From NCBI GenBank assembly GCA_014879945.1, contig JACSRE010000188.1, forward strand, positions 1-64,000: a stretch of DNA of 64,000 bases, written 5' to 3'. The notes under the pieces were generated by a model. The model had not been told where the DNA came from. It saw nothing but the letters and a program-made list of their open reading frames with translations, and did no database searches. This stretch comes from Myxococcus sp. GTDB taxonomy: Bacteria; Myxococcota; Myxococcia; Myxococcales; Myxococcaceae. Positions 1 through 28,465 of this stretch are shown here, in pieces. Position numbers and translations under genes: made by a program. The first letter of the stretch is position 1, and the number at the start of each line of letters is the position of its first letter.

Positions 1-427
1 GGGGGCGCGGCGCCGAGGGCGGCGGCTTGAGCGGCGGCACGGGGGTGCCGGCCAGCTGGGTGAGCTTGAGCACCAGCTCGCCCGACGCGGGGGTGCCCTC
101 TTTGGCCCCCACCGGGTCGTCGAGCAGATCAGACACCGCGTCGCACGCGTGCAGCAGCAGATCGGTCGCGGTGCGCGCGTCGACCTTCTGGTCGCCCCAG
201 GCCTTGAGCAGATCTTCCGAGGCGTGCGCGACCTGCCCGATGGCGGGCAGGCCCAGCATGCGCGCCTCGCCCTTCATGGTGTGCAGCTCGCGCGCGACGT
301 TCTCGGCCGCGCGGGCCCCGTCGGGCTTCTCCAGCTCGAGCACCCCGAGCTGAATCGCCTGCAGACGATCCTGCGTCACCTCGACGAACTTCGTCAGCAG
401 TGACTTCTTGAGGGCCTCGGTATCCAA
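1..427 (-). CDS. frzE: FrzE hybrid histidine kinase (CheA-CheY type), N-terminal part
   Basis: This is the N-terminal 142 codons of a CheA-type kinase that runs off the left edge. It holds an Hpt domain with the motif ELHTMKGEAR, and the phospho-acceptor histidine falls at residue 49, the position known for Myxococcus FrzE. The chosen start is TTG at 427-425, because the resulting N-terminus (DTEALKKSLL after Met) matches the FrzE family; an ATT codon lies just before it and no ATG or GTG is in frame nearby. No clear Shine-Dalgarno is visible. It starts 16 bases after frzCD and is probably translated from the same mRNA. A Pro-rich linker begins at the window edge. The kinase and receiver domains are not visible. 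Confidence 0.9.
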   Translation of the reverse strand, partial: MDTEALKKSLLTKFVEVTQDRLQAIQLGVLELEKPDGARAAENVARELHTMKGEARMLGLPAIGQVAHASEDLLKAWGDQKVDARTATDLLLHACDAVSDLLDDPVGAKEGTPASGELVLKLTQLAGTPVPPLKPPPSAPRP

Positions 428-443
428 AATGGGTGGCGGCGGG

Positions 444-1673
444 TCAGTCGGCCTTGAACCGCTTGATGAGCTCCGAGAGCCGGCCCGCCAGCTGGGTCAG
501 CTCGGCGGCGGCGCCGGTGGCCTGCTTCGAGGCCTGGGTCGTCTGCCGGGTGACCTCTTCGATCTCGCCCATCGACGCGACGACCTGCTCGGTGGCGGTG
601 CGCTGCTGCTGGGTGGCCAGGTTGATGACGCGCGCGGCGTCGCTGGTCTCTTGCACGCCCGCGAGAATGCCCTCGACGGCGCTGGCCGCGACCGAGCCGA
701 GGCGCTCGCCGGCCTCGGTGGCCTGGCGAGAGGCGTCGGCGGCGGCGGCGGCGGCGGCGGTGGCCTCGCGGATCTCGGTGATGAGGTTCTTGATCTCCTT
801 GGTCGACTCCAGGACGTTCTCAGCCAGGCGGCGCATCTCGGCGGCGACGATGCTGAAGCCCTTGCCCGCCTCGCCGGCGCGGCTGCCCTCGAGCGCGGCG
901 TTGAGCGCGAGCAGGTCGGAGCGATCGGCGATCTCGTCGATCACCTCGACGACGGTGCCGATGCGCTCCACGCGCCGCAGCAGCTTGGTGATCGACTCGC
1001 TCACCGCCACGCCGTCGGCGCGGATCTGCTGCATGGCCTGAATGAACTCGGCGATCGCGCCGCGGCCCGACCGCGCCGAGTTGAGGGTCTCTTCGGCGAC
1101 CCGCGCCACCGCGCCGGCGTTCTCGGCGATCTGCGCCGACGCGTGCTTGAGCTCCTCCATCGTCGCGGTGGTCTCGTGAATCGCCGCCGCCTGCTCGGTG
1201 GACGACGACTCGTGCTGGGTCGACGCCGCCAGCACCTCGTTGGCCGACGACGACAGGCGCAGCGCCGCCTCGTTGATCTCGCGCACGAAGGTGCGGAGGG
1301 TGTCGATCACCTTCGAGAAGCCGTCGAGCAGCGGCGCGAGCACGGCGTCGTCGGTGCGCGCCTGGAACGTGGCGAGCTCACCCTGGCGGACGAGCGCGTT
1401 GAGGCCCTCGATGGCCTCTTCGACGATGATCTGGGTGCGCTCCTTGCGCTGCTCCGAGTCGGCGACGCGGTGCTGCACGCGCTCCATCAGCGCGTTGACG
1501 AGGCGGCCGGCTTCGGCGCCTTCGCCTGAGAGCTTGCCCACGTCGACGCGCAGATCGAACCGGCCGCCGGTGAGCTCCTCGAGCGTGGACAACAACGACG
1601 CCAGCTCGGCGCGGGGCGCGCTGGTCGCGCTCTTCTTCGACTTCTTCGGCGCGGCGGTGGAAGGGTCAGGCAT
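444..1673 (-). CDS. frzCD: FrzCD cytoplasmic methyl-accepting chemotaxis receptor
   Basis: A 409-residue chemoreceptor with no membrane segment or signal peptide, as in FrzCD of Myxococcus, which senses cytoplasmic input and controls cell-reversal frequency. The N-terminal 60-70 residues are Lys/Ser/Ala-rich and divergent. From about residue 150 on there is a long coiled-coil signalling domain, including the hairpin tip with motif EVIDEIADRSDLLALNAALE and methylation-type Glu/Gln-rich helices. The C-terminus ends in ELIKRFKAD. The ATG at 1673 is preferred over a longer frame reaching 1805, because that extension is low-complexity and overlaps frzB almost entirely. The start overlaps the end of frzB by 8 bases. 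Family identity is very strong by pattern. Confidence 0.94.
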   Translation of the reverse strand: MPDPSTAAPKKSKKSATSAPRAELASLLSTLEELTGGRFDLRVDVGKLSGEGAEAGRLVNALMERVQHRVADSEQRKERTQIIVEEAIEGLNALVRQGELATFQARTDDAVLAPLLDGFSKVIDTLRTFVREINEAALRLSSSANEVLAASTQHESSSTEQAAAIHETTATMEELKHASAQIAENAGAVARVAEETLNSARSGRGAIAEFIQAMQQIRADGVAVSESITKLLRRVERIGTVVEVIDEIADRSDLLALNAALEGSRAGEAGKGFSIVAAEMRRLAENVLESTKEIKNLITEIREATAAAAAAADASRQATEAGERLGSVAASAVEGILAGVQETSDAARVINLATQQQRTATEQVVASMGEIEEVTRQTTQASKQATGAAAELTQLAGRLSELIKRFKAD

Positions 1674-2040
1674 GAGAGACCTCGGGACGGAAGGGGTTGG
1701 TGGCGTGGAGATCGACGAGGAGCACCGGCTGATCGCGGTCGAGCCACGCGCCGATGATGAAGGGAGAAGCCCCCGCTGCGGGGGGGAGCCGCCGCAGCTC
1801 GTCACGGGGGATGGACTGAACGCCGAGCACGCCGTCGATGGCGAGCGCCACCTCGACGTGCCCTGAGGTCATGAAGATGAGGGCCCGCCTGCCCTCTGTC
1901 GGCTTGCCCAGGGGGGCGCCGACGCTCTCGGTCTCGTCATGCCGGCCGATGCGCCGCACCTGCGTCATGTCGGCACCGTAGCGGGTCCCCGCGATGTCGA
2001 AGAGCACGATCTCGACCACCTCGACGACGGGCTCGCTCAT
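1666..2040 (-). CDS. frzB: FrzB CheW-like coupling protein
   Basis: A short (124-residue) CheW-like protein: a single SH3-like adaptor fold with conserved beta-strands around FDIAGTRYGADMTQVRRI and a C-terminal segment QPVLLVDLHA. In the Frz pathway FrzB is the second, accessory coupling protein between FrzCD and FrzE. The ATG at 2040 overlaps the frzA stop (ATGA), and its own stop overlaps the frzCD start, so frzA-frzB-frzCD are translationally coupled. It is shorter than typical CheW (about 150-170 residues), as known for FrzB. Confidence 0.88.
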   Translation of the reverse strand: MSEPVVEVVEIVLFDIAGTRYGADMTQVRRIGRHDETESVGAPLGKPTEGRRALIFMTSGHVEVALAIDGVLGVQSIPRDELRRLPPAAGASPFIIGAWLDRDQPVLLVDLHATNPFRPEVSHA

Positions 2041-2549
2041 CGCCGAACCACCGCGGCGCGCGCCGCCTGGAGCACCTTCGCCAGATCGAGCAGGCTGACG
2101 GTGCCCAGCTCGCGGTGCTGCACCAGGCCGCTGAGGAACTCGGCCGCCGCGCCGCCGCTCGACGGCGCCGGCAGCTTGTCGGCCACGAAGATGCGGCGCA
2201 GGCCGATCACCTGGTCGGCCAGGAAGGCCACCAGCAGGCCGTTCGCCTCGCCCACGAAGAGCCGGCCCCCCGGCACGGGCTTCGACTCTCCCTGCTGGAG
2301 GAACCGCAGCAGATCGATCACCGGCATCACCTGCCCGCGGTTCCCCACCACGCCGAGCAGGAACGACGGCGTGCGTGGCAGCGGCGTCATCGGGGCCAGG
2401 CGAGAGACCTCGCGCACCAGCTTCGACGGCACCGCGAGCGTCAGCGCGCCGAGCTTGAAGACGAAGAACTCCTCGTCGGGGCGCGCGGCCTGAGCGCGAC
2501 CCTTCTCGGGGGCCTCGGCGAGCGCGAGCTGGAGGGGGGTCGGTGGCAC
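2037..2549 (-). CDS. frzA: FrzA CheW-like coupling protein
   Basis: A 170-residue CheW homologue linking the FrzCD receptor to the FrzE kinase. Typical CheW features are the segment EEFFVFKLGALTLAVP, the loop region LLGVVGNRGQVMPVIDL and GLLVAFLADQVIGLRRI. The first 25 residues are an Ala/Glu-rich extension. GTG at 2549 is the likely start. No Shine-Dalgarno is evident, but a TA-type hexamer lies 10 bases upstream. It is first gene of the frzA-B-CD-E operon and is divergent from frzZ, with only 66 bases between the two starts, so the promoters lie back to back. Confidence 0.9.
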   Translation of the reverse strand: MPPTPLQLALAEAPEKGRAQAARPDEEFFVFKLGALTLAVPSKLVREVSRLAPMTPLPRTPSFLLGVVGNRGQVMPVIDLLRFLQQGESKPVPGGRLFVGEANGLLVAFLADQVIGLRRIFVADKLPAPSSGGAAAEFLSGLVQHRELGTVSLLDLAKVLQAARAAVVRR

Positions 2550-2559
2550 GAAGGCGCTC

Positions 2560-2565
2560 AGTATC
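2560..2565 (-). promoter_or_regulatory. possible -10 element of frzA (start-proximal)
   Basis: GATACT on the minus strand lies 10 bases before the frzA GTG, in a leader with no Shine-Dalgarno. This spacing would place the transcript start at or next to the start codon. It is inferred from position only; no convincing -35 hexamer is seen. Confidence 0.3.
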
Positions 2566-2615
2566 GAAATGGCTGGAGGAGCGGGTCAAGAACTCTGCTA
2601 CAAGCTTTTCTCGGC

Positions 2616-3350
2616 ATGGCAGCTCGCGTTCTGGTCATTGACGACAGCCCGATGACGGTTCAGCTCATCTGTGAGGCGCTGACGGCTGCGGGCATCGGCG
2701 TCGACAGCGCGATGGACCTGGCGACCCTCGACGCGCGGCTCGACGCCAACACCTACGAGCTGGTGCTGGTCGACGTGAACATGCCCGAGATGTACGGCGA
2801 CGACGTGGTCGAGTTCCTCCGCAGCCAGCGCAAGCTGACCGCGCGGCTGCTCCTCTACTCGGACCTCGCCGAAGACGAGCTGCTCGAGAAGACCCGGAAC
2901 TCGGGCGCCGACGGGTACGTCGCCAAGTCGCAGGGCCTCGAGGCGGCGGTCGAGACCATTCGTGATGCCCTCGACGGCCCGACGATTCAGAAGCACCGCG
3001 TGCTGGTGGTCGACGACAGCGAGCCCACCGTGCGGCTGCTCAAGGCCGAGCTCGAGGCCAAGGGCCACGAGGTGATGACCGCCAACGGCGCCGACGCGGC
3101 CACGAAGATCATCTTGAAGAAGAAGACGCGGCCCGACCTGGTGCTGCTCGACGTCAACATGCCGGGCGTCAACGGCGAAGAGCTCTGCCGCTTCATCAAG
3201 AACAACTCGCTCTTCTCGGGCATTCAGGTGGTGTTCTGCAGCGCCGCCGAGGACGCCGAGCTGCAGCGCCTGGTGAAGTCGTGCGGCGCCGACGGCTACG
3301 TGCGCAAGAGCCAGCTGATCGCCAAAGAGATCCTCGACCTGCTCACCTGA
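2616..3350 (+). CDS. frzZ: FrzZ dual-receiver response regulator
   Basis: Two CheY-like receiver domains in tandem and no output domain: REC1 about residues 3-118 and REC2 about 127-244. Both keep the acidic pocket, the phospho-acceptor Asp (D53 in VLVDVNMPEM and D179 in VLLDVNMPGV) and the conserved Lys in GADGYVAKS and GADGYVRKS. In Myxococcus FrzZ is the phosphorylation output of FrzE and acts on the polarity machinery. The linker between domains here is short (about ten residues), without the long Ala/Pro stretch reported for Myxococcus FrzZ. ATG at 2616 is chosen because the first REC strand starts right after it. Divergent from frzA. Confidence 0.92.
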   Translation: MAARVLVIDDSPMTVQLICEALTAAGIGVDSAMDLATLDARLDANTYELVLVDVNMPEMYGDDVVEFLRSQRKLTARLLLYSDLAEDELLEKTRNSGADGYVAKSQGLEAAVETIRDALDGPTIQKHRVLVVDDSEPTVRLLKAELEAKGHEVMTANGADAATKIILKKKTRPDLVLLDVNMPGVNGEELCRFIKNNSLFSGIQVVFCSAAEDAELQRLVKSCGADGYVRKSQLIAKEILDLLT

Positions 3351-3389
3351 CGTCGCAGTCATCGCAGCCACGGCGCAGTCGGGAGGCCC

Positions 3390-3785
3390 ATGAACGTCGA
3401 GGTCTTCGTGCTCGGTCGGGAGCAGCTGCCGCGCCGTGAAGGCGGGTGGACGCTGAGCGTGGGCCCGGTGCGCGTGCTCGAGGGCGTCGATGTCGAGCGC
3501 CTCCGCGAGCTCCCCGCGTTGGCGCCGCTGCTGACCGCGCTGACCTTCACCTCGCCCGACGAGCGGGCCTGCCTGGCGATGGCGCGAGAGGCGGCGCAGC
3601 TGGTGCGCGGCCAGGTGGTGACGAACGCCGGCCTGGTGCTGCACGACTTCGAGCACGATCCCCAGGCGCCGCTGAGCGCCGCCACCGTCGAGTCACGCTG
3701 GCGCGAGGTGCTCGAGGAGCCCCCTCGTGAGGTGGAGGCCATGCCCTCGGCCCCAGGCGACCAGAACGACTGGTCCAGGCTCTGA
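3390..3785 (+). CDS. hypothetical protein
   Basis: A 131-residue protein with no family I recognise. It has a good Shine-Dalgarno (GGGAGG, 6 bases before ATG) and strong GC3 bias, so it is probably real. It has no signal peptide, membrane segment or Cys clusters. The N-terminal half looks alpha/beta (VEVFVLGREQL, WTLSVGPVRV) and the middle helical. It lies 39 bases after frzZ on the same strand and may be co-transcribed with it, but no functional link to Frz can be read from sequence. The following 204 bases (3786-3989) hold short imperfect inverted repeats (for example 3791-3812) but no gene. Confidence 0.6.
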   Translation: MNVEVFVLGREQLPRREGGWTLSVGPVRVLEGVDVERLRELPALAPLLTALTFTSPDERACLAMAREAAQLVRGQVVTNAGLVLHDFEHDPQAPLSAATVESRWREVLEEPPREVEAMPSAPGDQNDWSRL

Positions 3786-3989
3786 GGTGGAGTGGAGCGT
3801 CGGTGCTCCGCTTCCCCACTGTCAGCCCCGAAGCTGTCGATCTCACTCGTCTTTCGACGAAAGGCCGTCTCGCGGTGGAGCATCGACGGTCCACTTGCGC
3901 GGCGGCGCAGGCCAAAAAACCTGAGGAAAATCAGGAAGGTGTCGATGTGTGCTCGTGTGGCCCGGCTCTTGGATAGGGATTGAGCGCAC

Positions 3990-4451
3990 ATGGCGATCGG
4001 AGCACTTCAGGCGAGCAGGGCCGTCAAGACCGGTGGCGGTCTGCGCGTGCCGGCCGCCGGGGCGCCGGTGGTCAAGGCGGTTGATGCCTTCGAGCGGGTG
4101 AAGTCGGTGACGGTGCCGGCGCTGCGCCGCGGCGCGACGGGCTCGGCGGTGAAGGCGATGCAGCTGAAGCTGGTCGCCAGGGGGCTGCTGTCCCGCTCCG
4201 ACTTCCTCAACGGCACCGGGGTGTTCGGGCCCCGCACCGAGACGGCCGTGAAGCGCCTGCAGGTGGAGCACGGCCTGCCGGTGACCGGCGTGCTCGACGC
4301 GCGCACCAACGCGGCGCTCAACAGCGAGCGGGCGCCCGCGAAGCCAGAGATCTCAGAGGTGAAGACCGACGTCTTCGAGAAGCCGGCCACGCTCTTCTCG
4401 GCGGCGCAGACGGTCACCGACGCCGACGACGAGGCCACGGTGGGCGTCTAG
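3990..4451 (+). CDS. peptidoglycan-binding (PG_binding_1) domain protein
   Basis: A 153-residue protein with one PG_binding_1 fold at about residues 45-110: LRRGATGSAVKAMQLKL, then FGPRTETAVKRLQVEHGLPVTG and LDARTNAAL, which is the canonical three-helix repeat signature. No signal peptide is visible, so export would need another route, or the domain acts as a general ligand-binding module. The rest is Ala/Val/Lys-rich and probably disordered. A 204-base upstream region and a strong terminator downstream suggest a single-gene unit. No enzyme domain is attached. Confidence 0.75.
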   Translation: MAIGALQASRAVKTGGGLRVPAAGAPVVKAVDAFERVKSVTVPALRRGATGSAVKAMQLKLVARGLLSRSDFLNGTGVFGPRTETAVKRLQVEHGLPVTGVLDARTNAALNSERAPAKPEISEVKTDVFEKPATLFSAAQTVTDADDEATVGV

Positions 4452-6293: not shown

Positions 6294-7388
6294 ATGAGCG
6301 CCCAGTCAGCCACGCCCAGCCGCCCCTACATCGGAGGCCAGGCCGTCATCGAAGGGGTGATGATGCGGGGCCCGAAGAGCTTCGTGGTGTCGGTGCGCCG
6401 CCCCGACGGGCAGATCGCCATTCGTGAGCAGGCGTGGAACGTGCTCTTCCCGAAGCTCTCGTTCCTGCGCTGGCCGGTGTTCCGCGGCGCGGTGGTGCTG
6501 GCCGAGTCGCTCCACAACGGGTACTCGGCGCTCACCTTCTCGTCGGAGCACGGGCTGCCGCCCGAAGAGGGTGGGGCGGCCGCGAAGCCCGGCCCGATCG
6601 CGACGCTGACGTTCCTGGTGCAGGCCATCGCGGCCGGGGCCGACGGCGCGCCGGGGGCACCCGGGCCCCACGCCCCGAAGAAGGACCGCGGCGCCGACGC
6701 GATGTTGGCCATCGCCACCGTCTTCATGCTCGGCTTCTTCATCGGCCTGCCGCACCTGTTGACCTGGGGCGTGGGCCAGGCGCTCGGGCCGGCGTTCGAC
6801 TCGACGAGCGTCGCCTTTCACGCCATCGACGGCGTGTTCCGCGTCGCCATCCTCGTCGGGTACCTCGCGCTCATCTCACGCACGAAGGACGCGAAGCGGC
6901 TGTTCGAGTACCACGGCGCCGAGCACAAGGCGATCTGGGCCTACGAGTCGCAGCAAGCGCTCACCGTCGAGAACGCCAGGCCCTTCACCACGCGCCACCC
7001 GCGCTGCGGCACCAGCTTCTTGTTCATCGTCGTGGGCGTCGCGGTGCTCCTGCACGTCTTGCTGCTGCCCCTGCTGCCGAGGCTTCACGCGAACGACGCC
7101 ATCAACCAGCTGCTGATGGTGCTCATCAAGGTGCCGATGGCCTTCCCCATCGCGGGCCTGGCCTTCGAGCTCCAGCGCCTCTCGGCGCGCGACAACTGCC
7201 CCGCCGTCATCTCGTGGATGACGAAGCCGGGCATCTGGCTGCAGGGCATCACCACCCAGCCGCCCGACGACGCCCAGCAGGAGATCGCCCTGCTCTCGCT
7301 CGACCGCGCGCTGGCCCGCGAGGTGGGAGCGCCGAAGACGGCCGAGGGCGTCACCATCTACGGTGACTTCGCCAGGGCCGCGGCGTGA
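6294..7388 (+). CDS. DUF1385 / YqhQ-family membrane protein
   Basis: A 364-residue inner-membrane protein of the DUF1385 family. Signature segments are YIGGQAVIEGVMMRGP near the N-terminus, LRWPVFRGAVVL, FEYHGAEHKAIWAYE, RHPRCGTSFLFIV and AFPIAGLAFELQRL. There are about four to five hydrophobic spans (around residues 140-160, 185-210, 245-265 and 280-300). The family often lies near rpmE and prfA in bacteria, and the same linkage is seen here. Biochemical role is unknown. ATG 6294 has an AGGAG and is preferred over GTG 6222. Confidence 0.88.
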   Translation: MSAQSATPSRPYIGGQAVIEGVMMRGPKSFVVSVRRPDGQIAIREQAWNVLFPKLSFLRWPVFRGAVVLAESLHNGYSALTFSSEHGLPPEEGGAAAKPGPIATLTFLVQAIAAGADGAPGAPGPHAPKKDRGADAMLAIATVFMLGFFIGLPHLLTWGVGQALGPAFDSTSVAFHAIDGVFRVAILVGYLALISRTKDAKRLFEYHGAEHKAIWAYESQQALTVENARPFTTRHPRCGTSFLFIVVGVAVLLHVLLLPLLPRLHANDAINQLLMVLIKVPMAFPIAGLAFELQRLSARDNCPAVISWMTKPGIWLQGITTQPPDDAQQEIALLSLDRALAREVGAPKTAEGVTIYGDFARAAA

Positions 7389-7439
7389 TCGTGCGATCAG
7401 AAAATTGACGGCGATCGAACCTCGCGTACCGTCTCGATC
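7387..7439. other. cluster of four GATC sites upstream of the methyltransferase gene
   Basis: GATC occurs at 7387, 7395, 7413 and 7436, that is four times in 53 bases across the putative promoter of the DNA methyltransferase gene. If the enzyme methylates GATC, these would be natural sites for self-regulation. GATC is not rare in this genome, so chance is possible. Confidence 0.4.
7405..7432 (+). promoter_or_regulatory. sigma-70-type promoter of the methyltransferase gene
   Basis: TTGACG (7405-7410) and TACCGT (7427-7432) are separated by 16 bases. This is the best -35/-10 pair in the 96-base gap before the gene and leaves a leader of about 45 bases that includes the ribosome-binding site GGAGG. 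One GATC site lies in the spacer. Confidence 0.5.
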
Positions 7440-7484
7440 AGACCTGTAGCGCCTGGGTCTCACATCGAAATCACCGGAGGCGAG

Positions 7485-8297
7485 ATGTCCGTCGCATCAC
7501 TGTCCAACGCGCGTTTGCGCGATGAAGTCGATCTGTCTTCACACGTCCACGCGCGGGGGCGTGACTACGTGCTCTACCAGGGCGACTCGACGGCCCTGAT
7601 GGGCGGCTTCGAAGACGCGACCTTCGACATGGTGTTCGCCGACCCGCCGTACTTCCTCTCGAACGGCGGCACCACGTGCCAGTCGGGCAAGCGGGTGAAG
7701 GTGGACAAGGGCGGCTGGGACGCGAGCAAGGGCGTCGAGCACGATCACGACTTCACCTCGAAGTGGCTGGAGCAGTGCCGCCGGGTGCTCAAGCCGTCGG
7801 GCACCATCTGGGTGTCGGGCACGCAGCACGTGATCTTCAACGTCGGCTTCGCGATGCAGAAGCTCGGCTTCAAGATCCTCAACATGGTGACGTGGTTCAA
7901 GCCGAACGCCTCGCCGAACCTGGCCTGCCGCACCTTCACGCACTCGACCGAGCTGCTGATCTGGGCCGCCCCGGTGAACAAGGGCAAGCTGCTCCACACC
8001 TTCAACTACAAGCAGATGAAGGCCGACAACGGCGGCAAGCAGATGCGCGACGTGTGGACGATGACGACGCCTAAGCCCTCAGAGAAGGTGCACGGCCGTC
8101 ACCCGACCCAGAAGCCGCGGGCGCTGCTCGAGCGCATCGTCGACGCCTGCACCGAAGACGACGCGCTGGTGCTCGACCCCTTTTGCGGCAGCGGCACCAC
8201 CGGCGTCGCGGCCAGGGTGAAGGGCCGCCGCTTCGTGGGCATCGACATGGACCCGCAGTACCTCGAGCTGACCAGGCGCCGCCTCGACGCGGAGTGA
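7485..8297 (+). CDS. orphan beta-class DNA amino-methyltransferase (DpnA/MboI-B-like)
   Basis: A 270-residue N6-adenine or N4-cytosine methyltransferase. Motif order is DPPY (residues 53-56) early and FCGSGTT (233-239, SAM binding) late, which defines the beta class. The stretch after DPPY (FLSNGGTTC, then KVDKGGWD) closely resembles DpnA/M.MboI-B-type enzymes that act on GATC, so GATC is the inferred target. HPTQKP precedes the SAM motif as usual. No restriction gene is next to it, so it looks solitary and may have an epigenetic or repair role. It has its own promoter region with four GATC sites and a GGAGG ribosome-binding site. Specificity is inference. Confidence 0.88.
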   Translation: MSVASLSNARLRDEVDLSSHVHARGRDYVLYQGDSTALMGGFEDATFDMVFADPPYFLSNGGTTCQSGKRVKVDKGGWDASKGVEHDHDFTSKWLEQCRRVLKPSGTIWVSGTQHVIFNVGFAMQKLGFKILNMVTWFKPNASPNLACRTFTHSTELLIWAAPVNKGKLLHTFNYKQMKADNGGKQMRDVWTMTTPKPSEKVHGRHPTQKPRALLERIVDACTEDDALVLDPFCGSGTTGVAARVKGRRFVGIDMDPQYLELTRRRLDAE

Positions 8298-21864: not shown

Positions 21865-21896
21865 CGCCGTGTGTCGATCTCAGATCGGCCACGGCG
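21865..21896 (+). terminator. terminator-like hairpin
   Basis: Outer arms 21865-21871 (CGCCGTG) and 21890-21896 pair, and an inner stem CGATC/GATCG (21875-21879, 21883-21887) continues it with small bulges. It lies 26 bases after the chalcone-isomerase-like stop. The tail TTCGTGCGTT is poor in T, so termination may be partial. Confidence 0.45.
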
Positions 21897-21942
21897 TTCG
21901 TGCGTTGAAGGGCTCACACCCCTTCCGCAGGAGTCACACCCC

Positions 21943-23061
21943 ATGAAGCGAACTGCACTGCTGGCCGCGTTCTGCGCCGCGCTGATGGCGGCGCCCGGCC
22001 TGGCCGCCGAAGACTCGAAGGCCGACCCGAAGATCCAGATCGCGATCCTCATCGACACCTCGAGCTCGATGGACGGCCTCATCAACCAGACCCGCGAGCA
22101 GCTGTGGAAGATCGTGAACACCTTCGCGACGGCGAAGCGTGACGGCAAGCGCGCGCGGCTCGAGCTGGCGCTCTACCAGTACGGCAACGACAGCCTGAAG
22201 GCCGACAACCACTACGTGAAGAAGATGTCGGATCTCACGGCCAACCTCGACAAGGTCTCGGAGCAGCTGTTCGCGCTGCGCACCAACGGCGGCGAGGAGT
22301 ACTGCGGCGCCGTCATTCAGCACGCCATGAAGGAGCTCGAGTGGAGCGGCAACCCCGCCGACCTGAAGCTCATCTACATCGCCGGCAACGAGCCCTTCGA
22401 TCAGGGCCCCATCGGGTACCGCGAGGTGGTCAAGGCGGCCATCGCCCGGGGCATCGTGGTGAACACCATTCACGCCGGCGACCAGGCCACCGGGGTCGCG
22501 CAGCACTGGCAAGACGCGGCGAAGCTCGCTGACGGCGCGTTCCTCACCATCGACCAGAACCGGGCCATCGTGCGCGTCGACGCGCCGCAGGACGCCGAGC
22601 TCGCGAAGCTGAACGAGGCGCTGAACAAGACGTACCTCGGCTACGGCCCACAGGGCGGTGAGGCGGTGGCCCGTCAGGCCGTGCAGGACAAGAACGCCAG
22701 CGGCATGTCGGCCGGCTCGCTCGCCACCCGCGCCGCGGCGAAGGCCTCGGCCGCCTACAACAACGCCGAGTGGGACCTGGTTGACGCGAAGAAAGAGGGC
22801 AAGAAGGTGGCTGATCTGCCCGCCGCTGCCCTGCCCGCGCCGATGCAGGCGATGAAGCCGGCCGAGCGCGAGGCCTTCGTCGAAGAGAAGTCGAAGGAGC
22901 GGGCCGAGCTGCAGGCGAAGATCGCGAAGCTGGCGAAGGATCGCGACGCGTTCGTCGCCGCCGAGACGAAGAAGAAGGCCTCGGCCGGCGGCAAGGCGAT
23001 GGATGAGGCGGTGATCGAGTCGGCCCGCGCCAAGGCCGAGGCCGCCCACTACGAGTTCTGA
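21943..23061 (+). CDS. secreted vWA-domain protein
   Basis: A 372-residue exported protein. The signal peptide is about residues 1-21 (ending PGLAAED). The von Willebrand A domain runs about 28-215 and has the MIDAS start IAILIDTSSSMDGL (DxSxS), with TNGGEEYCG and GNEPFDQG in place of the usual later metal ligands. The C-terminal 150 residues are helical and Lys/Ala/Glu-rich, probably a coiled coil. ATG 21943 follows GCAGGAG; a longer frame from 21871 lacks a signal peptide and includes the hairpin. Likely a periplasmic metal-dependent adhesion or scaffold protein. Confidence 0.82.
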   Translation: MKRTALLAAFCAALMAAPGLAAEDSKADPKIQIAILIDTSSSMDGLINQTREQLWKIVNTFATAKRDGKRARLELALYQYGNDSLKADNHYVKKMSDLTANLDKVSEQLFALRTNGGEEYCGAVIQHAMKELEWSGNPADLKLIYIAGNEPFDQGPIGYREVVKAAIARGIVVNTIHAGDQATGVAQHWQDAAKLADGAFLTIDQNRAIVRVDAPQDAELAKLNEALNKTYLGYGPQGGEAVARQAVQDKNASGMSAGSLATRAAAKASAAYNNAEWDLVDAKKEGKKVADLPAAALPAPMQAMKPAEREAFVEEKSKERAELQAKIAKLAKDRDAFVAAETKKKASAGGKAMDEAVIESARAKAEAAHYEF

Positions 23062-23137: not shown

Positions 23138-24169
23138 GTGCCGTCGTTGCTGGGTCCGCCCCGTCAGTCCCCTCGAGAGCCATGGCGCTGGGCGCTCCTG
23201 CCCCTGTCTTTGGCAGGGCACGGAGTGGGCGCGGCCCTGCTGGTGGCGCTGACCTCGCTGACCGCGGCGCCCCGGCCGCCCAAACCGCCCGAGCGCCGGC
23301 CCGTCACCATGCGGCGGCTCGACTCGCGGCAGTGGGCCGCCAACCGCGGTGCGCGCGCGGCGCCCAGGCCCGAGCGCCCGGCGCCGCCTGACCCCCAGGG
23401 GCAGGTGGTCGACGTCGCGCCCGGCAACGATCGCGCTCCGGTCGAGTCGAAGTACGTGGCCGAGACCAACAACCAGGTGAAGAACGAGACCCGCGCGCGC
23501 GAGCAGAGCCGCACCTGGAGCCGCGCGACGCCCCGCACCCAGGAGAACCCCGAGCTGCAGCCCTCGGCGAAGGGCGCCGTCGCCGAGTCGAGCGCGCCCC
23601 CGGCCTCGGCCGTCAGCCTCACCCAGAGCCTGCTGGGGCGCCGCACGCTCCCCAGCCTGCTCCCCGAGCTCTCCAGCGGCACGGGGTCCTCCGAGCCCTC
23701 GACCGAGCCCGTCGGCACCGAGTCGGGCAGCGAGGCGTCGGGCTCCGACACCACCGAAGGCGGCGGCGCGCCCAACGACGCGCTCGACGTGCCCGAGGGG
23801 GACGGCACCTTCCTCAACACCCGGGAGTGGAAGTACGCCGCGTTCTTCAACCGGGTGAAGCAGGCGGTCAGCGCCAAGTGGGATCCGAACGGCCGGCTCC
23901 GCCGCCGCAACGAGGGCCTCGGCAGCGCGACCCGCATCACCGTGATGCACGTGTCGCTGCGCCCCGATGGCAGCCTGGCCGATCTCTACGTCGGGCAGAG
24001 CAGCGGGGTCGACGTGCTCGACGCCGAGGCGATGAGCGCCTTCGAGAAGGCCGCGCCGTTCGGGAACCCGCCGGCCGGGCTGGTGAAGGACGGCTTCGTG
24101 CGGTTCACCTTCGGCTTCCACGTCACGAACGAAGGGCTGGCGGCGCCCTCGCCGTTCAGGTTCCGCTGA
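23138..24169 (+). CDS. TonB-like energy transducer family protein
   Basis: A 343-residue protein starting at GTG, with one N-terminal membrane span (ALLPLSLAGHGVGAALLVAL, about 19-38). A long Pro/Ser/Glu-rich periplasmic linker follows (about 45-225). The C-terminal TonB-type domain (about 228-335) has FNRVKQAVSAKWDP, ITVMHVSLRPDGSLADLYV and LDAEAMSAFEKAAPFGNPP. No exbB/exbD lies nearby. Myxobacteria have many such TonB-like paralogues. It has no Shine-Dalgarno; a TAGAG-type element is 6 bases upstream. The gene end overlaps the convergent JAMM-motif gene by 14 bases. Confidence 0.82.
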   Translation: MPSLLGPPRQSPREPWRWALLPLSLAGHGVGAALLVALTSLTAAPRPPKPPERRPVTMRRLDSRQWAANRGARAAPRPERPAPPDPQGQVVDVAPGNDRAPVESKYVAETNNQVKNETRAREQSRTWSRATPRTQENPELQPSAKGAVAESSAPPASAVSLTQSLLGRRTLPSLLPELSSGTGSSEPSTEPVGTESGSEASGSDTTEGGGAPNDALDVPEGDGTFLNTREWKYAAFFNRVKQAVSAKWDPNGRLRRRNEGLGSATRITVMHVSLRPDGSLADLYVGQSSGVDVLDAEAMSAFEKAAPFGNPPAGLVKDGFVRFTFGFHVTNEGLAAPSPFRFR

Positions 24170-24515
24170 GGGGCATTCCCGAGGCCAGCCGCAGCACCGT
24201 CGCCCACCACGGCAGCGCCGCGGCCGTCTCGTCCTTCCCCGCGCGCCGCACCAGCAGGCCCTTCGGCGACAGCACCGCCCACGCGAGCTGCTTGCCCAGC
24301 GCGGGCTCGACCGCCGCCATGGTTGACTCGTCTTCGTCGCTGAACGCGTGGGGCCCCAGGGGGTGGCTGTGCACCACCAGCTCGAGCTCGTCGCGGTGCC
24401 TCCACAGCGCCTCCCAACGCGCGCGCGAGTCGGGCAGAGCCAGGGCCGTCTCGCCGGCGTCGCTCCACACGATCGCGTCGCCGCGGCCGATCAACAGGAA
24501 GACCTCTCGGCTCAT
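24156..24515 (-). CDS. JAMM/MPN-motif protein (putative metallo-isopeptidase)
   Basis: A 119-residue protein with the zinc motif HxHx7SxxD (H49, H51, S59, D62 in HSHPLGPHAFSDED), as in JAB1/MPN+ isopeptidases and their prokaryotic relatives. A glutamate near the N-terminus (E4 in REVFLLIG) could complete the active site, though the spacing is short. Relatives cut isopeptide bonds to ubiquitin-like proteins or release cysteine from carrier proteins; no ubiquitin-like, E1 or E2 gene is seen here. The ATG overlaps the stop of the upstream gene (ATGA), so it is coupled to a coiled-coil protein and a vWA protein. Substrate unknown. Confidence 0.75.
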   Translation of the reverse strand: MSREVFLLIGRGDAIVWSDAGETALALPDSRARWEALWRHRDELELVVHSHPLGPHAFSDEDESTMAAVEPALGKQLAWAVLSPKGLLVRRAGKDETAAALPWWATVLRLASGMPLSGT

Positions 24516-25531
24516 GGCCACCTCAAGATCACCAGCGCGCCCGTCTCCATCGCCTCGTGGATCACGCCGATCAACGACTCGAGCGTGACCAGATCGTCTC
24601 GCGGCGGGTGGCCCAGGCAGATGCCCGAGTCGATCACCTGCAGCGTGGCGCCGTCGACGATCGAGATGAAGCGCTCGCCCTGGTAGCGGAACACCACCTC
24701 GAGCTGATCGCCGCGCAGCCGACGCAGCGTCTCGAGCTGGGCGCCGGCGGCGGCCAGGGCCTCTTCGGCGCGCTCCTCGATGGGCGCCTGGGGCCGGTTG
24801 CGTCGCCCCATGGCGTGCACGGCGCCGATCGCCTGCCGTTCGCGGAGCGCGTCGACCTGCGCGGCGACGTCGGCCGCGAGCAGCGCCTGCTGGCGGCGGC
24901 GGGCGAGCTCGTCCAGCTCCCGTCGCGCCAGCGCGCGCTCCGCCTCGAGCGCGCGGAGCACCTCGCGCGCCCTCTCGACGCCGCCCTCGGCGATCGGCCC
25001 CAGCGCCAGCCGCACCTCATGTGGCGCGAAGCGCACGTTCACCTCTCGGGCGACGCGCTCGAGCAGCGCCAGGCCGTACGCGGCGCGCAACGGCGCCGGC
25101 ACCCCCTTCACCGCCTGCAACGACCTGCGGTCACCGAGCGCCTCACGCGCCGCGCCCTCGGCTTCGGTCTCGAACTCCAGCCCCTCGAACAACAAGACGG
25201 TCGGGCTCCAGCGCCGCGCGACGATGGGGCTGAAGGCGGGCGGCTCCTCCTCAGGCAGCAGCTGCACCGGCTCCAGCGCGCCGCCCTCGCGGAAGAGCCG
25301 GTCGCCGCGCAGCCACCCGCGCACCTTCGGCAGCGCCTCGAGCGAAGGGGCGTCGGCCGGCGCCTGCACCCGCGCCCTTCGGCCCATCACCTCGAAGCGA
25401 AACCAGCCCGGCTTCTCGGGGGCGTCGCCGTCGAGCCGAAGCCGGCGGTCCTTCGCGTCGACCTCACGCCCGCCGAGCCAGGGCAGGGTGAGCGTCTCGG
25501 TCTTCGCGAGGAACCGCCGGTAGTCGACCAT
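24512..25531 (-). CDS. uncharacterised coiled-coil protein of the vWA-JAMM operon
   Basis: A 339-residue protein of unknown family. The N-terminal 150 residues look beta-rich (for example LTLPWLGGREVDAKDRRLRL). About 190-285 is a long coiled coil rich in Arg/Glu/Ala/Leu, and the C-terminal 55 residues form strands LEVVFRYQGERFISIVDG and TLQVIDSGICLGHPP. No catalytic motif, signal peptide or membrane span. It lies 4 bases after the vWA gene and overlaps the JAMM gene, so the three products are probably made together and may form a complex. Confidence 0.65.
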   Translation of the reverse strand: MVDYRRFLAKTETLTLPWLGGREVDAKDRRLRLDGDAPEKPGWFRFEVMGRRARVQAPADAPSLEALPKVRGWLRGDRLFREGGALEPVQLLPEEEPPAFSPIVARRWSPTVLLFEGLEFETEAEGAAREALGDRRSLQAVKGVPAPLRAAYGLALLERVAREVNVRFAPHEVRLALGPIAEGGVERAREVLRALEAERALARRELDELARRRQQALLAADVAAQVDALRERQAIGAVHAMGRRNRPQAPIEERAEEALAAAGAQLETLRRLRGDQLEVVFRYQGERFISIVDGATLQVIDSGICLGHPPRDDLVTLESLIGVIHEAMETGALVILRWP

Positions 25532-25535
25532 GGGG

Positions 25536-27305
25536 TCAGGCCTTCAGCTCGAGCAGGGGCGTGCGCATCACCCGCTCGACCCAGCCCTGCTGCGGGGCCG
25601 CGCCCAGCGCCACCGGCGCGTCGAGGAGCGCCTTGAGCACGCGCGTCACCTGGTACGGGTCGTCGAAGGAGCTGACGTTCACCTCGCTGAAGGGCACCTT
25701 GAGCTGGCCGGCCGCCGAGCGCACGGTGTTGCCGCGCGCGCCGTGGCCCGCCACCGACACCATCATCGCCATGGCGGCTGGCGCGTAGCCGAAGTCACGG
25801 AAGGCGCGCGCGAGCTGATCGCCTGCCTCGCCCGCCTCGTCGCCGACGACGATCACCACCAGCCGGGCCTCGGCAGGGAACCGCACGCCGCTCCCGTGGA
25901 GCGCTCGCAACGCCGCGGCGTGCACGGTGCCCCCGCTCGCCCTGATCGACCCCAGCATGTGCTTCACCGCGGCGCTGTTGGCGGCCTTGGGCACCAGCAC
26001 CGTGCCGGTGGTGTCGAAGGTGGCGATGTGCACCTTCTCGAGTGGGAAGCCGGCGAGGATCTTCGTCAGCGCCTCCTTGGACTGCTCGATGGCGCCCTCC
26101 ATCGAGCCCGACTTGTCGATCAGGAACATCACCCGCACGTCGACGTCCTTCGTCGCTTCGGTGACCGCCTTCTTCGCGGCGACGTCAGCCGCCTCGACGA
26201 GCTTCTCCTTGAGCGCCTGCGACCGGACGTTCTTCGCCACGTTCAGCGAGCGCTGATCGGTCGCCTCGGCGATGGCCTTTTCCCACCGCGCGCGGATCTC
26301 GGCGTCGGCCATCAGCCCGAGCGACTCGAGCGTCGGCGTGAGGATGCGGAGGTCGCGGTCGGAGAGCGACGGCACCAGCGCCGCCATGATCGCCGGCGTG
26401 AGGCCCACGTCCTTCGGGAGGCGGCCCACCACCTCTTTGTACGAGAGCCGCTGCGTCTCGATCGCCTCGCAGATCTCGACCTCGCTGAGGCCGTCGAAGC
26501 GGTCCTTCTTCTCGAGCTTGAGCGCGCCCAGGCCGACCGAGCGGTGCCCACCCGCGGCCTGCTTCTGCTTCCACCCCAGCACCTCGAAGAAGCGCTGCGA
26601 CTTCGGCTTGTAGCCAGCCTTGCGCGCGATGGCCTTGATGGTCTCTTTGAAGCCGGCCTTCACCAGCCCCTCGAGCAGCTGGGGGTTCGACTCGCGGTAC
26701 TCGAGCCACTTCTGCGCGGCGCGCTTCCAGCGCCCCAGCGGCGCCTTCTTCGAGGCCGGGTCACCGAAGCCGGCCCTGCGGTTGAGCTTCGCGATCTCGT
26801 CGGTCTCGAGCAGCTCGGCGACGCGCAGCACCGCCTTGGGCGTCATCATGCGCTGCGACTTCTTCTCGTAGAACAGGAGCATCGCCTCGCCGATGCGGCG
26901 GAAGTCGTCGTCCACGAAGGCCACCGAGCCGTCGTCGTCCTTCACCGGCTGGCCCGAGCGGGTCTGCACCAGCATCAGCGCCGAGGCGGCCACCTTCAGA
27001 TCGCGCCAGTCGGTCTCCTTGAGCGCGTAGCTGGCGAAGTGGGCGAACAGATCGTGGTTGAGCGCGTAGATCTCGAGCAGGCGCGTGTAGAGGCGCTCGG
27101 CGGCGGTCACGTGGAGGCCGGGGCGCACCTCCTTCGCGCCGCGAGGCAGCGGCGCGCCGCGGCTGGGCTTCATCTGCCAGGTGCCGGCGACCTCGATGCC
27201 GGGGCGGTTGTGCCAGAGGTGCGCCGAGCTCGAGAGGATGAGGTCGAGCAGCTTCTCGGCGGGGCCCATCTGGGCCTCGGGCAGCGGGTTTCGGGCGTTG
27301 GCCAT
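25536..27305 (-). CDS. alpha-helical/vWA protein with Ro60-like architecture
   Basis: A 589-residue cytoplasmic protein. Residues 1 to about 385 are helical and HEAT-like (segments LYTRLLEIYALNHDLFAHFA, GRWKRAAQKWLEYRES and VGLTPAIMAALVPSLSDRDL). A vWA domain covers about 390-570 with MIDAS residues in FLIDKSGSM, the Thr in IATFDTTGTVLV and Asp in VVGDEAGEAG. A helical ring followed by vWA recalls the TROVE protein Ro60/Rsr, which binds Y RNA and misfolded RNA, but the TROVE signature is not obvious, so this is only an analogy. AGAGGA precedes the ATG. It is first of a three-gene operon and divergent from selD. Confidence 0.75.
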   Translation of the reverse strand: MANARNPLPEAQMGPAEKLLDLILSSSAHLWHNRPGIEVAGTWQMKPSRGAPLPRGAKEVRPGLHVTAAERLYTRLLEIYALNHDLFAHFASYALKETDWRDLKVAASALMLVQTRSGQPVKDDDGSVAFVDDDFRRIGEAMLLFYEKKSQRMMTPKAVLRVAELLETDEIAKLNRRAGFGDPASKKAPLGRWKRAAQKWLEYRESNPQLLEGLVKAGFKETIKAIARKAGYKPKSQRFFEVLGWKQKQAAGGHRSVGLGALKLEKKDRFDGLSEVEICEAIETQRLSYKEVVGRLPKDVGLTPAIMAALVPSLSDRDLRILTPTLESLGLMADAEIRARWEKAIAEATDQRSLNVAKNVRSQALKEKLVEAADVAAKKAVTEATKDVDVRVMFLIDKSGSMEGAIEQSKEALTKILAGFPLEKVHIATFDTTGTVLVPKAANSAAVKHMLGSIRASGGTVHAAALRALHGSGVRFPAEARLVVIVVGDEAGEAGDQLARAFRDFGYAPAAMAMMVSVAGHGARGNTVRSAAGQLKVPFSEVNVSSFDDPYQVTRVLKALLDAPVALGAAPQQGWVERVMRTPLLELKA

Positions 27306-27421: not shown

Positions 27422-28465
27422 ATGAACGCTCCGATTCCGAAGCTGACCCAGCTCTCGAACTGCGCTGGCTGCGCCGCCAAGCTTCGCCCCGACGTGCTGC
27501 ACCAGGTGTTGCGAGGCATCTCGAACACGAAGGTCAAAGACGCGCTGGTGGGCTTCGAGACGAGCGACGACGCGGCGGTGTACCGGCTGCGGCCCGATCT
27601 CGCGATCGTCGAGACGGTCGACTTCTTCCCGCCGGTGCTCGACGACCCGTTCGCGTACGGACAGATCGCGGCGGCCAACGCGATGAGTGACATCTGGGCG
27701 ATGGGCGCGAAGCCGATCTTCGCCCTCAACATCGTCGCGTTCCCGAAGGAGCTGCCGATCGAGATCCTCCACCAGATCCTCGCCGGCGGCGCGTCGAAGG
27801 CGAAGGAGGCGGGCATCCCCATTCTCGGCGGTCACTCCATCCAGTCGCCGGAGCCGAAGTACGGGCTCGCCGTCACCGGCACGATTCACCCGAAGAAGAT
27901 CCTCACCAACGCCGGCGGCAAGGCGGGTGACGTGCTGATCCTCACCAAGCCGATCGGCACCGGCATCGCCACCACGGCGCTCAAGCGGGGCCTGGCGTCG
28001 AAGGCGTTGATCGCGCGCGTCACCGAGCAGATGGCGGCGCTCAACATGAAGGCCGGAGAGGTCTTCGCGAGCGGCAAGTTCAAGGTGAACGCGCTGACTG
28101 ACGTGACGGGCTTCGGACTCCTGGGGCACGCGCTCGAGGTGGCTCGCGGCGCGAAGCTGCGCGGGGTCATCGAGCTCGAGCGGGTGCCGCTGTTGCCTGA
28201 GATCGCGGCCCTGGCAGAGCAGGGCGTGGTGCCCGGTGGCACGAAGACCAACCTCGAGCATGCGGCGAAGGGCGTTCGTTTCCCCGAAGGGTTGCCCGAG
28301 GCCATCAAGCATGTGCTGGCTGATGCCCAGACCAACGGCGGGCTCCTGGCCTGCGTGCCCGAGAAAGACGTGGCGAAGGCGCTCAGGCTGCTCGCGGCGA
28401 AGAAGGTCGAGGCCTGGCCGATCGGTTGGCTCGAGAAGGGCAAGCCGGGGCTGACGATCGCCTGA
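27422..28465 (+). CDS. selD: selenide, water dikinase (selenophosphate synthetase)
   Basis: A 347-residue ATP-dependent enzyme making selenophosphate for selenocysteine or 2-selenouridine synthesis. The N-terminus aligns with E. coli SelD without gaps: the essential C17 and K20 are present (NCAGCAAKL), while the non-essential C19 is Ala. ATP and metal sites are in SDDAAVY, DFFPPVLDDPFAYGQIAAAN and ILGGHSIQSPEPKYG, and TDVTGFGLLGHALE is diagnostic. AAGGAG ribosome-binding site. No selA, selB or tRNA-Sec is seen in the window. Confidence 0.96.
   Translation: MNAPIPKLTQLSNCAGCAAKLRPDVLHQVLRGISNTKVKDALVGFETSDDAAVYRLRPDLAIVETVDFFPPVLDDPFAYGQIAAANAMSDIWAMGAKPIFALNIVAFPKELPIEILHQILAGGASKAKEAGIPILGGHSIQSPEPKYGLAVTGTIHPKKILTNAGGKAGDVLILTKPIGTGIATTALKRGLASKALIARVTEQMAALNMKAGEVFASGKFKVNALTDVTGFGLLGHALEVARGAKLRGVIELERVPLLPEIAALAEQGVVPGGTKTNLEHAAKGVRFPEGLPEAIKHVLADAQTNGGLLACVPEKDVAKALRLLAAKKVEAWPIGWLEKGKPGLTIA

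Follow-up and report, generated by a model that had tools for sequence, protein, structure and literature searches.

What does a Ro60-like protein do beside a protease of the JAMM type? The question is raised by a 64,000-nt stretch of Myxococcus sp. (GCA_014879945.1, contig JACSRE010000188.1; hereafter the window), in which three packed genes encode a von Willebrand factor A (vWA) protein, a coiled-coil protein (protein B) and a small protein with a JAMM motif (JAB). Stated most safely, these genes belong to a conserved system of six parts, namely a Ro60-like protein, a Y RNA, the E2-like protein B, JAB, an E1 and a small modifier candidate with a conserved PFG motif. Sequence comparison points to a Ro60/Y-RNA particle that is probably coupled to ubiquitin-like (Ubl) conjugation, most likely in RNA or translation quality control or in a stress response. 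In this explanation, which we favor as a whole, the window would hold three of the five proteins of a ribonucleoprotein (RNP)-linked Ubl conjugation system.

Ro60 and Y RNAs are prominent autoantigens in humans, and what they do in the cell is still under debate; for bacterial ubiquitin-like pathways, the assignment of functions has only begun. The system would genetically tie Ro60/Y RNA to a bacterial Ubl pathway in culturable myxobacteria; if the explanation is true, the targets of the particle and RNA-directed ubiquitin-like tagging would become directly testable. A link between the two was not found in the literature searched, although it may figure in work on bacterial TROVE systems.

The vWA protein resembles Ro60

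The vWA protein consists of an N-terminal helical (HEAT-like) half (residues ~1-385) and a C-terminal vWA domain with an intact metal-ion-dependent adhesion site (MIDAS; D397, S399, S401, T432 and D489, invariant in 28 aligned rows). When its structure model was compared with the PDB by Foldseek, ranks 1-3 were taken by one TROVE domain and two Ro60 entries (E 2.5e-8 to 4e-7), and the alignments covered 536-579 columns, approximately the whole chain. Comparison with Ro60 chains by VIA gave Z ~14, with 372-422 residues aligned at a root-mean-square deviation of 7-8; the aligned length is what matters here, because single vWA domains reach equally high Z. Moreover, the helical half matched five TROVE proteins in hhalign (P 8e-5, 235 columns) with a score of 41.8 versus 21.6 for the best control, and 0 of the 28 controls reached it. 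These results bear out the Ro60-like helical/vWA layout that the preliminary description of this DNA had proposed, and place the vWA protein, with strong support, among the Ro60/TROVE proteins as a divergent member. Matches to the Pfam TROVE family (PF05731) were found in only 5 of the 195 genomes of the phylum.

Permuted tRNA-like RNAs upstream of the vWA gene

Among the relatives, Rfam searches found tRNA-like matches directly ahead of the vWA gene in L101 and L102, and an array of tRNAs in a cyanobacterial locus. A T-arm scan then revealed a conserved element that precedes many vWA genes. In this element, the two halves of a tRNA are exchanged: the 3' one, with T arm and 3' acceptor strand, comes first, and a short linker joins it to the 5' one, with 5' acceptor strand, D arm and often an anticodon arm. 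A tRNA with a long variable-arm insert was considered and rejected for most units, as the pairing tests gave the permuted order. Specifically, 59 of 74 distinct units paired at 12 or more of the 14 acceptor positions, and mean pairing was 12.3 of 14 versus 5.5 for strands swapped between units, with 249 of 5316 swaps also reaching 12. Of the well-paired units, 52 were listed and 48 aligned; across their five helices, 97.8% of 1391 cells were paired, with 249 both-side changes, compared with 30-50% for slid partners. Because units were picked on acceptor pairing, the statistics of helix 4 are partly selected, whereas those of the other helices are not.

The two ends of the RNA also pair (GCGCCCG/CGGGCGC and GAGGCC/GGCUUC), enclosing an internal loop, CCGAN/NUCACU, that we take to resemble the Ro60-binding loop of vertebrate Y RNAs. 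Additionally, the Rfam model YrlA (RF02553) gave matches with E values of 5e-7 to 2e-6, several of them full length. A permuted tRNA module with paired ends, together with the YrlA match, identifies these RNAs as divergent YrlA-type Y RNAs, for which the sequence evidence is strong.

A clean anticodon arm, with a five-pair stem and a seven-base loop, was found in 27 of the 59 well-paired units and was missing from the other 32. Seventeen triplets occurred among these arms, and at one and the same upstream position relative to the vWA gene, nine loci had seven different triplets. U33 was present in only 16 of the 27, which speaks against ordinary decoding. Upstream of its vWA gene, locus L081 carries an array (6787-7930) of approximately eight units resembling Y RNAs, one of which encloses an ordinary unpermuted tRNA (7096-7168).

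Two further arrangements were observed. L053, L055, L057, L059-L063 and other Myxococcaceae loci contain two RNA units, of which the second scores lower and lies ~0.9 kb upstream of the other. At L101 (7642-7767), at L102 (2359-2494) and upstream of the vWA gene in L105, the RNA element appears to lie inside an unpermuted tRNA, whose 7-pair acceptor is in normal order, unlike that of the permuted units elsewhere.

Conservation and co-occurrence of the parts

In a protein search of a class sample of 147 genomes, 79 had a vWA match; after four weak vWA-only matches (G112, G061, G063 and G037) were left out, 75 genomes with a strong match remained. Compared genome by genome, protein B and the PFG protein were present in the same 75, and all three were missing from G001, a 100% complete genome of the same genus. 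A scan of a species-level genome collection added loci L040-L117, with identity down to ~40%, in Myxococcota including Polyangia, in Virgisporangium (Actinomycetes) and in metagenome-assembled genomes labelled Planctomycetota and Schekmanbacteria. These names are record labels and may be wrong; L103, for example, is labelled Comamonas and looks like Myxococcus.

The three-gene set that the preliminary description had suggested looking for in other genomes kept its vWA-B-JAB order in 59 of the 71 loci having a vWA gene. Six of the other 12 end at a contig edge after B begins, and the order differs in L050, L056, L094, L097, L105 and L108. All five genes were contiguous in 19 of the 71 loci; in another 10 the modifier-E1 pair was present at a distance, ~3-6 kb downstream in nine of them. 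Clustering of the neighboring open reading frames (ORFs) showed that the conserved clusters common to distant loci were these five proteins only. Since order and close spacing are kept in nearly every genome that has the genes, the vWA-B-JAB neighborhood is not due to chance. The idea of chance neighbors with a spurious JAMM motif, for which nothing was found, is already refuted by the conservation of order, catalytic residues and co-occurrence, and we give it practically no credence.

At three loci, L166 (G019:C7), L169 (G116:C5) and L056, the vWA gene has no adjoining B or JAB gene, and a modifier gene lies ~3-5 kb downstream, accompanied by an E1 gene in L169 and L056. L169 also contains many tRNA T-arm matches at 10.2-12.1 kb.

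The RNA follows the proteins closely. Among 142 class genomes, the RNA core model R1, built in part from loci of the tested genomes, was strong (E < 1e-6) in 74 of the 75 protein-bearing genomes (the exception being G004) and in 1 of the 67 without the proteins (G089), with neither RNA nor proteins in 66; the Fisher p-value of 1.7e-38 overstates independence, because the genomes are related. The full RNA model R2 gave 80 matches in L040-L110, all on the vWA strand, and 75 of them lay at most 1.5 kb upstream of the vWA gene, in 44 of the 67 loci with enough sequence. From this linkage and co-occurrence we predict that the Ro60-like protein binds the Y RNA.

In the genome from which the window comes, the parts are scattered. 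The modifier and E1 genes lie together at a second locus (G000:C206:160473-161345), and Y RNAs are found on other contigs, with strong matches at C65:21123-21273 and C329:43809-43939 and a weaker one at C362. Such separation of the two halves would fit a Ro60/Y-RNA particle for decay or repair, comparable to Rsr/YrlA working with PNPase or RtcB, whose only tie to an independent Ubl pathway would be a common operon. Known Ro60 RNPs do work with nucleases, according to the available part of PMC7790460. We consider this improbable, as the RNA, the vWA protein, B and the PFG protein co-occur near-perfectly even when unlinked, and the vWA and B genes are tightly spaced. Gene order and co-occurrence, including the unlinked cases, thus support the view that the parts act together.

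An E2-like protein, a JAMM protease, an E1 and a modifier candidate

Protein B had been described as a coiled-coil protein of no known family. The coiled coil forms a helix of 73 residues in the AlphaFold2 model (predicted local distance difference test score, pLDDT, 88.8), and the C-terminal domain now suggests an affiliation. In the model, a helix (251-261) is followed by strands at 265-271, 276-283, 286-293, 298-301 and 304-306 and by a second helix (317-330), and Cys305, conserved in 63 of 63 sequences of a wide set, sits in the region of strand 304-306, after a four-strand meander. The UBC fold has the same helix-meander-Cys-helix order, with its active cysteine after strand 4. Moreover, hhalign aligned B with Prok-E2_B (P 0.013; profile sequences from ten genomes, of which 8 were used), with GICL in register with the E2_B cysteine motif, and 0 of 65 controls scored as high. 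The HPN motif, a feature of eukaryotic E2s, was found ahead of GICL in 0 of 30 rows of B. The matches listed by fold searches were rejected as common beta-barrel arrangements confined to residues 63-135 (Z at most 8). Taken together, the order of elements in the model, the weak profile match and the genetic context give moderate support to B as an E2-like protein.

JAB carries the motif H49-S-H51-x7-S59-x2-D62, to which Glu4 can be added, and scored above the cut-off of Pfam Prok-JAB (4.3e-7); a sequence search against solved structures gave no match. The glutamate is conserved in 57 of 58 sequences and each of the other four residues in 59 of 59. The JAMM motif noted earlier is therefore well founded, and the residues argue strongly for an intact, active-looking metalloprotease. 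The preliminary description had named a gene order that varies and JAMM residues that vary as the observations that would speak against the operon; the order in the 71 loci and the residue counts show conservation of both.

The E1/ThiF protein is a small, single-domain protein of ~190 aa (Pfam ThiF 3.7e-22), and this assignment is strongly indicated by sequence. Its profile matched MoeB in the PDB (4e-13), as well as ThiF, Uba4 and Cap2, and its cysteine, present in 30 of 30 sequences, aligned with the MoeB cysteine motif TC.EaG. It also partly matched PADLOC E1-E2 defence models. The protein encoded beside it has 78-84 aa and the form MAILNITYNG...RIYLRPKVPFG plus a tail of 0-17 residues. PFG was conserved in 33 of 33 sequences, and the C-terminal glycine for E1 and JAB is thus kept. 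Its context makes this protein a candidate ubiquitin-like modifier.

A small E1 of the single-domain ThiF/MoeB type would also suit a sulfur carrier. In that case, the PFG protein would be a thiocarboxylate carrier charged by E1 for tRNA thiolation or other sulfur transfer, JAB would act as in CysO/Mec-type systems, and Ro60/Y RNA would handle tRNA. tRNA shapes are plentiful, and JAB partners of sulfur carriers exist. This explanation has little to recommend it when set against the conserved partner B with its invariant cysteine in an E2-like motif, the ending in PFG rather than GG, the lack of a ThiS/MoaD match and the fact that no sulfurtransferase was recognized among the neighbors looked at.

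Proposed mechanism

We infer that the particle is coupled to tagging and propose the following course. The Ro60-like ring would bind the stem of the Y RNA, and the tRNA module of the RNA would hold or mimic a translation-related client. JAB would trim the small protein to ...PFG, after which E1 would adenylate the modifier and hand it over to Cys305 of the E2-like B. With the Ro60/Y-RNA particle as its docking site, protein B would serve as a ligase scaffold and might then tag RNP-associated proteins, or partners that bind tRNA, when the particle sees them as faulty or under attack; JAB would take the tag off again.

A more specific form of this course can be put forward tentatively, as one that may well turn out otherwise. 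The system could be an RNA-scaffolded Ubl ligase: permuted tRNAs with varied anticodons, presented by the Ro60-type ring as part of the Y RNAs, would lure enzymes that handle the RNAs of translation or attack them, and a dedicated E1-E2-Ubl-JAB cascade would tag the captives. Further baits in the relatives would be a complete, unpermuted tRNA and perhaps a fragment of 23S rRNA.

Varied anticodons would equally serve an anti-phage or inter-bacterial conflict system, in which the Y RNAs bait anticodon nucleases or further toxins aimed at translation, and Ubl tagging is set off by cleavage or by capture. The diversity of triplets and the incomplete U33 agree with such a role, as do the patchy spread of the system, its absence from a genome of the same genus and the resemblance of the E1 to defence models. 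Furthermore, Ubl cassettes are known in vWA conflict systems (PMC7159879, as far as the available text goes), and the part of PMC7790460 at hand discusses the tRNA domain of YrlA as a possible competitor against an anticodon nuclease. We nevertheless regard a conflict system as rather unlikely: the three window proteins matched no PADLOC model, a plasmid search gave no match to the vWA protein, and no effector toxin was recognized.

Several results weigh against a Ro60/Y-RNA particle with its own Ubl pathway. The Pfam TROVE model gave no match in the vWA protein or in the whole genome (E 1), so the profile comparison with TROVE proposed in the preliminary description succeeded for the helical half in hhalign and failed in Pfam; the structure model of the vWA protein is of moderate confidence (pLDDT 72.5). 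The best YrlA scores, 41-44 bits, are below the Rfam gathering score of 69, and 23 of the 67 loci with at least 600 bases upstream gave no R2 match within 1.5 kb of the vWA gene. Scans of the window for tRNAs, Rfam families and the RNA models were empty; the small structured RNA that the preliminary description suggested looking for near 27300 is thus not in the window, but the hint at such an RNA proved right, with counterparts upstream of the vWA gene in relatives and on other contigs here. No Pfam or solved-structure sequence match identified B as an E2, and Foldseek and VIA listed no E2 for the whole B model, a search in which the C-terminal region was barely tested. The modifier had no Pfam or PDB match, and its profile scored 9.6 against MoaD/ThiS in hhalign, a value reached by 25 of 28 controls (10 of the 17 candidate reads for the MoaD/ThiS set had been dropped beforehand because of wrong frames or unusable sequence).

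On balance, the earlier interpretation is partly supported. It had offered RNA or protein quality control, or a Ubl conflict system without visible E1/E2; quality control is favored here. The supposed lack of E1 no longer holds, given the E1 and candidate modifier at the second locus, and B is probably E2-like.

Organization of the operon

The three packed ORFs were confirmed in the window (27305-24156; Table 1). The vWA and B genes are separated by 4 bases, and the B and JAB genes share an ATGA overlap.

Table 1. Genes of the vWA-B-JAB operon and the layout of protein B
Feature	Position	Strand	Length	Description
vWA protein	25536-27305	minus	589 aa	First of the vWA-B-JAB order
Protein B	24512-25531	minus	339 aa	Middle gene; N-terminal beta domains, long coiled coil (170-242), C-terminal domain (251-339) with invariant Cys305 in GICL
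JAB protein	24156-24515, counted from ATG	minus	119 aa	Last gene

Scans of the three proteins with Pfam, NCBIfam, PADLOC and PHROGs returned vWA-type families and Prok-JAB only, including VWA_2 in the vWA protein (2.8e-9), and Pfam found nothing credible in B. PADLOC models and NCBIfam equivalogs likewise gave no match for the modifier, and no NCBIfam equivalog matched vWA, B or JAB. A divergent ORF, presumably selD, starts at 27422, 116 bases upstream of the vWA gene. Approximately 1 kb past the JAB gene, a second, unrelated vWA-like ORF occupies 21871-23061 on the plus strand and looks secreted by eye; weak vWA matches also follow the operon in same-genus loci.

A cyanobacterial cousin

A distant cousin of the system was observed on plasmid pA of Kovacikia minuta (L186, NZ_CP083583.1), where 33 tRNA genes predicted by ARAGORN are packed around it at 107-4123. 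Its genes comprise a modifier-like ORF, a TROVE-like vWA gene, a CCA-adding-enzyme-like nucleotidyltransferase gene, an E2-like gene and an E1 gene, with no JAB gene. The helical half of its vWA protein scored against TROVE in hhalign similarly to that of the window. The E2-like gene directly follows a 23S rRNA fragment (7941-8015; positions 1081-1156 of the large-subunit model). Ahead of this fragment stands GCGTGCCCTAATCTGTAGAGCCTACA, a sequence similar to the 5' end of Y RNAs; a matching 3' end was not found. The fragment could be a Y RNA with rRNA cargo.

Comparison with known systems

The PRTRC system combines a JAB protein, a ThiF protein and a small putative Ubl. The E1 described here gave a weak match to PRTRC_ThiF (1.6e-8), far below the model cut-off, and no other PRTRC proteins were recognized.

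On the RNP side, the closest likeness is to bacterial Ro60 (Rsr) with YrlA/YrlB, for example in Salmonella rsr-yrlBA-rtcBA. According to the available portion of PMC7790460, these systems likewise have a TROVE-plus-vWA protein and a linked Y RNA, whose module mimics a tRNA in permuted order, with a closing stem formed by the two ends. Unlike Rsr/YrlA, the present protein is too divergent for Pfam TROVE and the RNAs fall below Rfam YrlA gathering. Moreover, up to approximately eight copies of the RNA occur, in tandem or dispersed, and among the well-paired units about half have a clean anticodon arm. Genes of Ubl type stand in place of RtcB/RtcA.

On the conjugation side, separate Ubl-like, E1, E2-like and JAB proteins are also a feature of Bil, CBASS type II and the prokaryotic operon type 6d, which Iyer et al. 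(2006; PMC1779556, available part) describe as Ubl, JAB, E1, E2 and an alpha-helical protein. Unlike in those systems, the partner here resembles Ro60 and comes with an RNA of its own, protein B combines beta domains at its N terminus with a coiled coil, and the E1 is a minimal ThiF domain.

In the FtsH-ternary vWA-MoxR conflict systems of Kaur et al. (2020; PMC7159879), a vWA protein also accompanies JAB, E1, E2 and Ubl genes in multicellular bacteria, so far as the accessible text describes them. Neither this account nor that of PMC1779556, in the parts available, mentions a TROVE protein or a Y RNA. In contrast to vWA-MoxR, the conserved neighbors described here include no AAA+ ATPase, the vWA domain is fused to a TROVE-like half rather than to a beta-propeller, and a Y RNA is present.

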